The notes under the pieces were generated by a model. The model saw only the letters and a program-made list of their open reading frames with translations, was not told the origin of the DNA and did no database searches. Positions 1 through 6,100 of a stretch of DNA of 64,000 bases are shown one piece after another. This DNA is from Aureimonas sp. SK2 (GTDB lineage Bacteria > Pseudomonadota > Alphaproteobacteria > Rhizobiales > Rhizobiaceae): the NCBI RefSeq assembly GCF_029813115.1, contig NZ_JAPZDS010000012.1, forward strand, positions 1 through 64,000. The letters run 5' to 3'. Numbering within the stretch: position 1 is the first letter of the stretch; each line of letters opens with the position of its first letter. The translations under genes and the position numbers were made by a program.

Positions 1-32
1 GAAGAGGAGTAAGCCGGGCGTCGCCCTCCCGG

Positions 33-1193
33 TCAGCCGTGCAGCTCCACCGGCGTGGAGTGACCTCGATGCGAGTTGAAGCGCGAGAGCCGGAAAGGAT
101 CGATCGGCAGTTCGGTCGCGCCCCCTTCCGCCAAATCCGCCAGGATCTGACCGGTGACGGGACCGAGGCAGAAGCCGTGTCCGGAGAAGCCGGTGGCCAG
201 CACCAGTCCGCCAGCCTCTGGCAAGACGTCGATCACCGGCAACGCATCGACCGTCTGATCGATCAACCCGCACCAGACTTTATCGACGCGCACGTTCGCC
301 ATCATCGGAACGAGACTGCGCACACTTTCCAGAATGCGCAGCACGCTGTCGGTGGTCGGCCGGACCTGCGGGCGTGGATTGTACTGCGCCCGCCCGTCCC
401 AGGTTTCGTGACCGCCACCGAAACGGAACTCTCCGCCGACCTCCTGGCGAAGGGTCGTGTCGCCGTTCGCGACGCCGATTACGGGCAGTGGCTCGCCCGG
501 GGTGGATACGGAACGGAGCATCGTCGCACTCATAACTTCGAACGGCACACGCAGGTCGAAGGGCGCGATCAGCTCGTTGCCGTGGACCCCGGTCGCGAGC
601 ACGACCTGCGATACGTCGTACCGCCCGGCCGGTGTTCGCACGCTTTTGCTTCCTCCGGCACGAACCTCCACCGCTTCGACTCGCTCGCCGAACCGCGTCA
701 CCACGCCATGGCGCTCACCTGCTGCCACGAAGGCCCCGACCGTCGCAGAAGGGTCGGCGTGGCCGTCACTTGGGCAGAAACTTGCGGCCAGCACACGTTC
801 CGAAACTACCGGCACTGCGTCGCGCACAGCGACTCCTTCCAACAGCTTCATCTCAAGACCAGCATCTTCGTGCTCGGCAACAACGGCCTTGATGCGTTGG
901 ACCTCACTCTCGTCGCGAGCGCAGCGCAGGTTGCCGACCTGCCGATAATGGGTCGGACCGTCGAGCCGCTCGGCAAGGTCCTGCCAAAGCTCGACCGCGC
1001 GCTTTGCCAATGGCACCTCAGCTGGGTGGCGGCCCGATTGCCGCACGCCGGCGAGGGTCCACCCAGATGCCATGGCCGCGGGGCCGTATTGATCGATCAA
1101 GACGACCTTATGTCCGCGGAGCGCCAGCTCGTATGCTGTTGCAGATCCACTGATGCCCGCCCCTACCACTGCAATATCGAAGCGCATTGCCAT
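33..1193 (-). CDS. FAD-dependent oxidoreductase of the D-amino-acid oxidase (DAO/DadA-like) family
   Basis: Predicted flavoenzyme of 386 aa that oxidises an amine or amino-acid-type substrate; the exact substrate cannot be read from sequence. The N-terminus (from MAMRFDI) forms a Rossmann ADP-binding strand with GAGISG at residues 11-16, followed by an acidic/Asp strand end (LIDQ). The C-terminus carries GFSGHGFCLGP, the second FAD-contact motif typical of DAO and sarcosine-oxidase beta-like proteins. The frame stays open 52 codons further upstream, but that stretch overlaps the divergent regulator and lacks the family fold, so the ATG at 1193 (AGGAG 14 nt upstream) is preferred; a second ATG lies at 1187. 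It is divergent from an IclR gene that probably controls it. Base composition is visibly more A/T-rich than the core genes, consistent with transfer. Family call firm, function open. Confidence 0.8.
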   Translation of the reverse strand: MAMRFDIAVVGAGISGSATAYELALRGHKVVLIDQYGPAAMASGWTLAGVRQSGRHPAEVPLAKRAVELWQDLAERLDGPTHYRQVGNLRCARDESEVQRIKAVVAEHEDAGLEMKLLEGVAVRDAVPVVSERVLAASFCPSDGHADPSATVGAFVAAGERHGVVTRFGERVEAVEVRAGGSKSVRTPAGRYDVSQVVLATGVHGNELIAPFDLRVPFEVMSATMLRSVSTPGEPLPVIGVANGDTTLRQEVGGEFRFGGGHETWDGRAQYNPRPQVRPTTDSVLRILESVRSLVPMMANVRVDKVWCGLIDQTVDALPVIDVLPEAGGLVLATGFSGHGFCLGPVTGQILADLAEGGATELPIDPFRLSRFNSHRGHSTPVELHG

Positions 1194-1299
1194 TCCCCGA
1201 TCGCTGATCTCCTGCCCTAGACTGGCCCGATAATGCGTTTTTGACAAAGCAATCGGTGCCGATAAAAGGTATATCGAGAAGTTTGTACGGAGATTGGCT
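1194..1299. promoter_or_regulatory. Divergent promoter region between the DAO-like gene and the IclR gene
   Basis: A 106-bp intergenic stretch between two divergently read genes, clearly A/T-richer than its surroundings. Divergent placement of an IclR regulator and its target enzyme normally means the operator lies here. I see no clear long palindrome, so the operator position is not assigned. Confidence 0.45.
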
Positions 1300-2052
1300 G
1301 TGTCGACGGAGAGTTCCAGTACGACCGAAAGGGCAGCAGAGATTCTCATCCACCTTGGGGCTGCCGGAAGCGATGGACTATCCCTGCAAGCTCTGTCGCA
1401 GCATCTGGGTGGAGCAAAATCTGCCGTCCGTCGAGGCTTGATCGCCCTGTCGAAGAGCGGTTTTGTCGAGAACGCTGGACGATATGGACACTATCGGCTT
1501 GGCCCCGCAATTTTCGGCCTAGCCAATCGTCCGTCCTCAACGATCGAACTCGTCCGTCGCTACCGGCCCGCTCTAGCCGAGGTTGCAGCAGTTACTCAGC
1601 AGGCAAGTTATCTGATGGTCCGCGCAGGCTTCGATGCCATCTGCATCGACATGCACGAAGGCACCGCCTTCGTGCAAACCCTGACAGGGGGTATTGGAGG
1701 CCGTGTTCCGCTGGGCATTGGCCCTGGCTCAATCAGTCTCCTGACCCTTCTCGACACACGCTTGGCAAACAGTACCATCGACCACAACGCGGCAAGGTTC
1801 GAGCGATACAACGGAGCGGATACGACGAAGGTGCGTCAAACCTTAGAACGGGCGCGCATGCTGGGATACAGCTACGATATTGGGGAAACCTTCCCAGACG
1901 CAGGGGGTGTTGGCGTTCCTGTTGTAGCGAGTTGGGGGAAAACCGCCGCTGCCATCTCCATCGCTATTCCGGCTTCGCTGCTGAACCCAAAACGCGCAGC
2001 CGAGATCGCTACCGAGATCCGGGCCGCTATTTCAGCCTGCCCATCCGCCTGA
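1300..2052 (+). CDS. IclR family transcriptional regulator
   Basis: DNA-binding regulator of 250 aa. Residues ~5-65 form the winged helix-turn-helix (ERAAEIL..., LSLQALSQHLG, KSAVRRGLIAL, with the wing GRYGHYRLG), and the remainder is the IclR effector-binding domain (a PALAEVA... segment, ending KRAAEIATEIRAAIS). The GTG at 1300 is chosen because GGAG at 1289-1292 sits 7 nt upstream; a TTG at 1294 would place the same Shine-Dalgarno sequence almost on the start codon. It reads divergently from the DAO-like oxidoreductase, the probable target. IclR proteins commonly regulate catabolic genes and respond to a small carbon compound; the ligand here is unknown. Composition is A/T-richer than the core, as for its partner. 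Confidence 0.88.
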   Translation: MSTESSSTTERAAEILIHLGAAGSDGLSLQALSQHLGGAKSAVRRGLIALSKSGFVENAGRYGHYRLGPAIFGLANRPSSTIELVRRYRPALAEVAAVTQQASYLMVRAGFDAICIDMHEGTAFVQTLTGGIGGRVPLGIGPGSISLLTLLDTRLANSTIDHNAARFERYNGADTTKVRQTLERARMLGYSYDIGETFPDAGGVGVPVVASWGKTAAAISIAIPASLLNPKRAAEIATEIRAAISACPSA

Positions 2053-2155
2053 TCGATGTAGGCAGGCTATACAATCTGGTCGACCGACCCTGTAGTCCGC
2101 GGGCTTATCGCACTGATCCTGATGCGAACGGCGTGGAGTTTGATCGAAGGAAAGG

Positions 2156-2181
2156 TGATCTGCTCCCGAAAAACTGGATCG
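2156..2181 (+). repeat. Left terminal inverted repeat of the IS3-family element
   Basis: Begins TGATCTGCTCCC and pairs with the right end at 3365-3390. Identity is strong over the first 12 bases (one difference) and continues weakly inward through AAA and TGGA blocks. Confidence 0.8.
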
Positions 2182-2236
2182 TTCTGAACTGGAGTTTTCT
2201 GCGGTAGCATCCCTTGGCCGGGAGGAGCGGAGAACG

Positions 2237-2503
2237 ATGAAGGCATCGAAGTTCTCGGACGCCCAGAAGGCGTTCATTTTGAAGCAGGGCGCTGATGGCA
2301 TCGCAGTCGCCGAGATATGCCGACGGGCCGGGATCAGCCAGGCGACCTACTTCAACTGGAAGAAGAAGTATGACGGTCTGCTGCCGACGGAGATGAGGCG
2401 GCTGAAGCAGCTCGAAGACGAGAACGGAAAGCTTCGCAAACTCGTCGCGGACCTGTCGTTGGACAAGGAGATGCTGCAGGACGTGATCCGCCGAAAACTG
2501 TGA
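2237..2503 (+). CDS. IS3-family transposase OrfA
   Basis: Small 88-aa DNA-binding subunit. Residues ~5-55 form the helix-turn-helix that binds the IS ends (VAEICRRAGISQATYFNWKKK), and residues ~60-85 form a leucine-zipper-like helix (LKQLEDENGKLRKLVADL) used to multimerise with OrfAB. GGAGGAGCGGAG just upstream of the ATG is a strong Shine-Dalgarno region. The last codons overlap the start of orfB (GTGA). In IS3 elements a -1 frameshift near this junction produces the OrfAB transposase; an A-rich run (GAAAAC) precedes the stop, but a slippery site is not proven. Confidence 0.92.
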   Translation: MKASKFSDAQKAFILKQGADGIAVAEICRRAGISQATYFNWKKKYDGLLPTEMRRLKQLEDENGKLRKLVADLSLDKEMLQDVIRRKL

Positions 2504-3339
2504 GGCCTGGCCGCAAACGCGAGCTGGTGGCGGAGACGTGCAAGGAATGGGGTGTCTCGATCCGGCGAGCTTGCCGGGTCCTGGAGTTCGACACCTCGAC
2601 CTATCACTACAAGTCCCGTCGCCGGGATCAGGCCGGTTTGGCAGCTCGCATCAAGGACATCTGCATAACGCGGGTCAGCTACGGTTACCGTCGCGTTCAC
2701 GTACTGCTTCGGCGCGAGGGCTGGGCTGGCAACATCAAGCGAACCTATCGGGTCTACAGGGATCTCTACCTGCAACTGCGGAACAAAACGCCGAAGCAGC
2801 GGGTAAAGGCCAAACTCCGGGACGATCGGCAGATGGCTGCCGGCCCGAACGAGGTCTGGGCGATGGACTTCGTCCACGATCAGCTCGCGATGGACAGGAA
2901 GATCAGGATTCTCACGATCATCGATACGTTCAGCCGCTACGTGCCCGCGCTCGACCCTCGGTGCCGATATCGGGCCGAGGACGTCGTGCGAACGCTCGAG
3001 CAAATCTGTCCCGTCATCGGTTATCCCAAGACCATCCGCGTCGATCAGGGCACCGAGTTCGTATCCCGCGAACTCGACCTATGGGCCTACACGAATGGCG
3101 TGACACTGGACTTCTCCCGGCCGGGCAAGCCCACCGACAACGCCTACATTGAAGCCTTCAACGGAAGGTTCCGAGCGGAGTGCCTCAACCAGCACTGGCT
3201 CCTGACGCTTGCCGACGCCGTGGAAAAGTTGGAGGGTTGGCGCAGATACTACAACGAGGAGCGCCCACACGGGGCGATCGGGAACAAGGTCCCGATCTCG
3301 TTCATCAATCCCGACGGCGCCACCGGCCCGCCGTCGTGA
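2500..3339 (+). CDS. IS3-family transposase OrfB (DDE integrase domain)
   Basis: Catalytic transposase half, 279 aa. An HTH_21-type region (residues ~45-100, with YGYRRVHVLLRREG) precedes the rve/RNase H-like core. The catalytic triad can be placed at Asp123 (VWAMDFVHD), Asp182 (VDQGTEFVS) and Glu218 (NAYIEAFNG); 35 residues separate the last two, the standard D35E spacing of IS3 elements. The C-terminus has the usual YYNEERPHGAIG motif. It starts at a GTG overlapping the orfA stop and is probably made mainly as a frameshift fusion. No internal stop or truncation is seen. Confidence 0.93.
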   Translation: MRPGRKRELVAETCKEWGVSIRRACRVLEFDTSTYHYKSRRRDQAGLAARIKDICITRVSYGYRRVHVLLRREGWAGNIKRTYRVYRDLYLQLRNKTPKQRVKAKLRDDRQMAAGPNEVWAMDFVHDQLAMDRKIRILTIIDTFSRYVPALDPRCRYRAEDVVRTLEQICPVIGYPKTIRVDQGTEFVSRELDLWAYTNGVTLDFSRPGKPTDNAYIEAFNGRFRAECLNQHWLLTLADAVEKLEGWRRYYNEERPHGAIGNKVPISFINPDGATGPPS

Positions 3340-3364
3340 CGAAGCCGGGAAACTCCAGCTTCCG

Positions 3365-3390
3365 CCGGTCCAAGGTTTGGGAGCGGATCA
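3365..3390 (-). repeat. Right terminal inverted repeat of the IS3-family element
   Basis: On the minus strand it reads TGATCCGCTCCC..., matching the left end with one difference in the first 12 bases. The next plus-strand bases (ATCA) do not match the left flank (AAGG). Confidence 0.8.
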
Positions 3391-3399
3391 ATCACTCCT

Positions 3400-3465
3400 G
3401 CCCCCGGCTAATTGCGCAACAAAACTATATTTTATGCGCAACAAACGGGAGATAATTGCGCAACA
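3400..3465 (-). repeat. Three tandem 22-bp repeats, each starting TGTTGCGCA (possible transposon end)
   Basis: Read on the minus strand there are three consecutive 22-bp units at 3465-3444, 3443-3422 and 3421-3400. Each begins TGTTGCGCA; units one and three share TGTTGCGCAATTA. The period is exactly 22 bp, two helical turns. The array lies between the IS right end (3390) and the gyrB stop codon (3485). Multiple 20-22 bp transposase-binding sites starting with TGT are typical of the ends of Tn7-, Tn5053- and Mu-like elements, so this may be a leftover end of such a transposon. No matching transposase gene or second end is in the window. Confidence 0.6.
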
Positions 3466-3484
3466 GCACATCGAGTCAGCCGCC

Positions 3485-6100
<2,616 letters not shown>

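Follow-up and report, generated by a model that had tools for sequence, protein, structure and literature searches.

The window, a 64-kb stretch of DNA on contig C4 of a draft genome (G000), carries gyrB on its minus strand, and directly beyond the gyrB stop codon lies a short repeat array, followed by an insertion sequence and two further genes towards the contig end. The features concerned, some of which refer to a second contig of the same genome, C56, are the following.

33..1193, minus strand: FAD-dependent oxidoreductase (Pfam DAO), on the contig-end side of the right end
1294..2052, plus strand: IclR-family regulator (Pfam IclR_C, HTH_IclR), likewise on the contig-end side of the right end
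2156..3390, plus strand: IS3-family insertion sequence with orfA (2237-2503), orfB (2500-3339) and termini TGATCTGCTCCC/TGATCCGCTCCC; adjoins the right end
3391..3470, minus strand: very probable surviving right end of a Tn7-like element, marked by low GC and an outward alignment with the C56 end
3409..3421, minus strand: presumed TnsB site 3 (TGTTGCGCAATTA), in 22-bp register
3431..3443, minus strand: presumed TnsB site 2 (TGTTGCGCATAAA), in 22-bp register
3453-3465, minus strand: presumed TnsB site 1, in 22-bp register, within the terminal inverted repeat
3453..3470, minus strand: terminal inverted repeat TGTGCTGTTGCGCAATTA, a 17/18 match to the inverted TGTGCCGTTGCGCAATTA at C56:407-424
3471..3475, minus strand: CTCGA, read as the gyrB-side copy of a target-site duplication; the same 5 bp stand at C56:425-429
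3485..5935, minus strand: gyrB (Pfam DNA_gyraseB, DNA_gyraseB_C, Toprim, HATPase_c, GyrB_hook), stop codon 3487-3485, with the presumed transposon directly beyond

Read on the minus strand from 3465, the array consists of TGTTGCGCAATTATCTCCCGTT / TGTTGCGCATAAAATATAGTTT / TGTTGCGCAATTAGCC.., three adjacent units with an exact 22-bp period (window 3465-3400). Each unit begins with TGTTGCGCA, and 13 bases, TGTTGCGCAATTA, are common to units 1 and 3. The 9-mer TGTTGCGCA has three copies in the window, all of them in the array, against a mean of 0.36 in shuffled sequences, of which 0/100 gave three. Furthermore, a lag test covering 130 bp beyond gyrB gave the window genome a score that none of 400 dinucleotide-resampled sequences reached. 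The periodicity and the shared bases, both claimed in the preliminary description, are thus borne out, and the array of three 22-bp units is real and non-random. The G+C content of 3392-3470 is 0.468, compared with 0.694 for 6000-64000. A gyrB 3′ fragment used as query located gyrB in all 21 genomes of the genus; these alignments stop at the stop codon or within about 10 bp of it, and the downstream DNA varies among most genomes. Retention of the array in all relatives, raised earlier as an outcome that would speak against a mobile element, was not observed: by exact matching, the two-unit pattern is present only in the window's own genome and in 0/20 others.

The outer edge of the array had been placed at 3465, 19 bp past the gyrB stop codon, which is 5 bp short. 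The right terminus is TGTGCTGTTGCGCAATTA (window 3470-3453), and its outer edge at 3470 lies 14 bp beyond the stop codon, a gap made up of 9 bp and the pentanucleotide CTCGA. Contig C56 opens with the inverted partner TGTGCCGTTGCGCAATTA (C56:424-407) and further spaced copies; both termini start with 5′-TGT (5′-TGTGC.. on the right) and are inverted relative to each other. CTCGA is found directly outside both termini and reads as a 5-bp target-site duplication, so that the second inverted end and the duplication by which an element was to be recognized are both present in this genome. A search of the 4.56-Mb genome for TGTTGCGCAATTA, allowing up to one mismatch, gave five places: the array accounts for two, and the other three stand 54-55 bp apart within 122 bp where C56 begins; the reversed control pattern gave none. 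Spacing between sites is 22/22 bp at the right end and 55/22/32 bp at the left end on C56, where a script allowing up to three mismatches listed three sites and TATTGCGCA was placed by eye. We designate these ends TGTGCYGTTGCGCAATTA ends. Beyond the partner end, at 584-4351, C56 carries a gene that we take to be metH from its translation.

A related element was identified in G009, where the tns/tni genes anticipated in relatives were found. Its contig C11 encodes, among eight ORFs scanned, a TnsA (PF08722), a transposase, a TniB-type ATPase and two TniQ proteins, in the arrangement tnsA-tnsB-tnsC-tniQ-tniQ2; the transposase in the TnsB position matches rve weakly, at 24.7 bits against a cut-off of 32.6. 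After these genes comes an end that carries CCCATAAATCCCGCA repeats; metH lies 8.2 kb beyond this left end, and the other end is found on C12, the gyrB contig of this genome, 174 bp after the stop codon. Both termini carry TGTCGCC and are flanked on the outside by ACAGG. The left-end spacing of 54/22/32 bp is close to the 55/22/32 bp of the window genome, whereas the site sequences look unrelated. The G009 element is better preserved than the window's copy, and its ends likewise stand on the gyrB and metH contigs. Furthermore, G018 contains an end 97.5% identical to that of G009 over 81 bp, located 9 bp past the gyrB stop codon, on a contig that stops 259 bp past this codon.

Based on these observations, we interpret the array as the right end of a Tn7-like transposon that sits just beyond gyrB, with its left end on C56 next to metH, and assign this reading a probability of about 0.93. 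It is carried by the paired inverted termini, the CTCGA duplication, the combination of a dense right end with a spaced left end, and the related tnsABC-tniQ-tniQ2 element between gyrB and metH in G009. The earlier suggestion that an end of a Tn7/Tn5053/Mu-type element lies next to gyrB is thereby supported in its Tn7-like form, with the terminus shifted by 5 bp. The three close-set 22-bp units would be sites for a TnsB-type transposase. Several observations speak against this reading: C4 and C56 are separate contigs, between which a search of contig ends found zero overlap, and the G009 ends likewise lie on C12 and C11; at 174 bp the G009 element shows that the distance to gyrB is not fixed and short; the sole TniQ match of the window genome belongs to another tns cluster; and metH is far from gyrB in most genomes that have both on one contig. 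Since the ends are on separate contigs in both G000 and G009, each pair is taken as a single element spanning the contig gap from the matching termini and duplication.

The gyrB-metH neighborhood itself is not general. Six of the 21 genomes have both genes on a single contig, and no genome has them adjacent; in G004 the distance from gyrB downstream to metH is 17 kb, compared with 0.7-3.6 Mb along the contig in G002, G005, G008, G010, and G013. Closeness is thus seen directly only in G004 and is suggested for G000 and G009 by the matching element ends, and the megabase-scale distances in five genomes make the neighborhood at best a trait of close relatives. The gene beside gyrB in G016 and G007 was considered as a marker of the site, but the remaining 19 genomes have it at other places, and it was uninformative.

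Tn7 inserts just past glmS and generates a 5-bp duplication. Passages of PMC11406308 describe close-set 22-bp TnsB sites at its right end, spaced sites at its left end, and an orientation with the right end nearest the target gene. The window element resembles Tn7 in all these features, including the length of the duplication, but differs in its neighbor gene, in its site sequence and in the lack of transposase genes from those parts of its copy that are assembled. Elements of the Tn5053/Tn402 type have a TniA-TniB-TniQ type core and TGT termini and are similar in these respects, but the G009 element adds a TnsA-like endonuclease. A position beside gyrB also differs from the plasmid resolution sites that passages of PMC11406308 give as targets of Tn5053/Tn402.

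By analogy to Tn7 at glmS, a TnsD-like TniQ may recognize the 3′ end of gyrB and steer insertion beside it, which would make gyrB a chosen target. A competing and rather doubtful view is that a Tn7-like element landed here without any gyrB-specific target protein. The insertion positions past the stop codon bear on both views: 14 bp in G000 and 9 bp in G018, for different end families, argue against an incidental position, whereas the 174 bp in G009 are consistent with it. Two elements with matching duplications on gyrB and metH contigs also point to targeting.

In the lag test on 130 bp past gyrB, applied to 21 genomes, 0/400 resampled sequences scored as high in G000, G011, G017, and G020; p-values, uncorrected for the 21 tests, were 0.022 for G008, 0.043 for G015, 0.060 for G004 and higher in 14. 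Most genomes thus have no significant array at this place, as an incidental position would allow. The arrays of G011, G017, and G020, which have a 21-bp period, speak for targeting and are suggestive of Tn7-like ends, although no partner end or duplication was found for them. G018 and G009 fail the 130-bp test, with a 40-bp spacing and a 174-bp offset, respectively. Within the stretches retrieved, and under the mismatch limits applied, no left end was detected for G011, G012, G015, G017, G018, or G020.

TniQ (PF06527) is encoded in 10 of the 21 genus genomes. In G019, a TniQ gene lies 2.7 kb past gyrB, a further point against an incidental position, and its product is the best match of G009 TniQ2 among the loci compared (32% identity over 631 residues). 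A tree of 22 sequences, comprising 21 of the 22 TniQ places of the genus (G007:C5:77761 was left out) and one from another genus (G372), pairs G009 TniQ2 with the G019 protein at 100/99 and groups both with a G015 copy, encoded on C48 22.5 kb from metH, and with G372 at 89/98. Within this group, G372 pairs with the G015 copy, so the three gyrB-associated sequences alone do not form one clade. In G372, TniQ and gyrB are on different contigs and no such array is present in the 300 bp past its gyrB, which favors an incidental position. A family-wide search with TniQ2, which scored at most two candidates per genome and can have missed relatives, gave matches at ≤1e-25 in 17 of 394 genomes, 16 of them, including the window genome, only through the C-terminal IS5-like part and one (G372) through TniQ. 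Four plasmid records matched TniQ2, all at <30% identity. A global pattern scan yielded 54 stretches with two TGTTGCGCA copies 22 bp apart; tblastn of five G009 and two G019 proteins against these stretches (≤8 kb each) found no sister element and a single match, at the IS5-like part of TniQ2.

On balance, we see an even chance that the gyrB 3′ end is a dedicated attachment site, used repeatedly in the genus by several Tn7-like lineages with different ends and steered by the TniQ2/TnsD group (G009, G019, and possibly G015). parE is a topoisomerase gene paralogous to gyrB, and Tn7-like elements are known to carry cargo into fixed safe sites. If the gyrB site is indeed of this kind, it would parallel, under protein guidance, the parE site of some CASTs and would bring an essential and widely conserved gene into the set of known Tn7-like targets; DNA recognition by its TniQ could then be set beside that of the proteins acting at glmS and parE. 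According to passages of PMC11406308, attachment sites of Tn7-like elements include glmS, tRNA genes and parE, and Tn7017-type I-F3 CASTs show TniQ-directed insertion beside parE, to which insertion beside gyrB would be similar. A term search for gyrB gave 0 occurrences in the main texts of PMC8649781, PMC10293859, and PMC11406308, which comprise two surveys of Tn7 and one review; the portion of PMC12452197 concerned uses gyrB as a phylogenetic marker. The Tn7-like class and the parE site are known, whereas gyrB as an attachment site was not found in the literature searched and may be listed in supplementary tables or subscription papers.

Two further explanations of the array have very little probability. 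IS21 elements have TGT ends and repeated terminal sites, as seen here, and IstB matches above the Pfam cut-off occur in all 21 genus genomes, most of them weak (about 24-27 bits), with one strong IstB in the window genome (C67:8-703). An IS21-family end is nevertheless highly improbable: the related G009 element carries a Tn7-type set, tnsA-tnsB-tnsC-tniQ, all five TGTTGCGCAATTA-like places map to C4 or C56 and none to C67 beside the IstB gene, and the contrast of a dense right end with a spaced left one agrees with Tn7-like elements. We set it aside on the first two of these grounds. Slightly less probable still is a host feature of gyrB that resembles a transposon end (regulatory sites, a terminator or an iteron-like array), as the position 14 bp past gyrB and the palindromic TTGCGCAA might suggest, since exact matching detected the array in none of the 20 other genus genomes, the same sites recur inverted on C56 with a matching 5-bp duplication, which refutes a host origin unless both are chance, and Rfam has zero matches in the window at gathering thresholds.

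The Tn7-like element next to gyrB in the window is probably defective, because no transposase gene is present in its assembled parts and the IS3-family element adjoins the array. The assembled parts (window 1-3470 and C56:1-424, with the middle unassembled) contain no tnsA, tnsB, tnsC or tniQ/tnsD, and no istA or istB was among the proteins scanned in window 1-3470. TniQ/TniB matches in this genome are found only on C9 and C34, the latter a further TniB. The sole TniQ, on C9, falls outside the gyrB-associated group and inside another tns cluster, and hence no machinery is tied to the gyrB-side copy. The IS ends at 3390, 9 bp from the innermost unit, as described previously. The simplest reading would be a defective element whose interior was rearranged via the IS3-family element, perhaps with loss of its own transposase genes through this insertion. 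The DAO and IclR genes lie either inside the element, where they may be cargo, or in whatever replaced its interior. The termini of the IS3-family element are good inverted repeats, but no direct duplication was seen at its ends; this would fit an IS-linked deletion or recombination.

Several additional observations concern the surrounding elements. On C9, the window genome has a second Tn7-like core, tnsA-tnsB-tnsC-tniQ (L105:3475-9393), apparently distinct from the gyrB element; two 30-bp repeats upstream of it (L105:2698-2757) may be an end of that cluster. G009 TniQ2 ends in an IS5/DUF4096 domain (L112:16960-17307) that is missing from its G019 relative, which might stem from fusion to an insertion sequence or be a DNA-binding domain that was borrowed. 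A block of small ORFs past gyrB is common to G009 (L087:5478-11154), G017 (L091:1062-7066), and G019 (L094:5143-9309). Its last ORF encodes a protein of 313-317 amino acids that resembles the TnsB core and shows 75-89% identity between the three genomes; at the three positions that align with what we presume to be the D-D-E pattern of TnsB, the acidic residues are replaced. Seven of the block's proteins had zero PADLOC matches; with Pfam and PHROGs, only the TnsB-like protein matched, apart from one sub-threshold DUF. Finally, short TGTTGCGCAA arrays occur on several contigs of two uncultured genomes, a Bacteroidales MAG and a Paraprevotella MAG (L012, L024, L026, L033 and L007, L018, L029, L038, L048, L052); they are unlike the gyrB element and are perhaps REP-like repeats.
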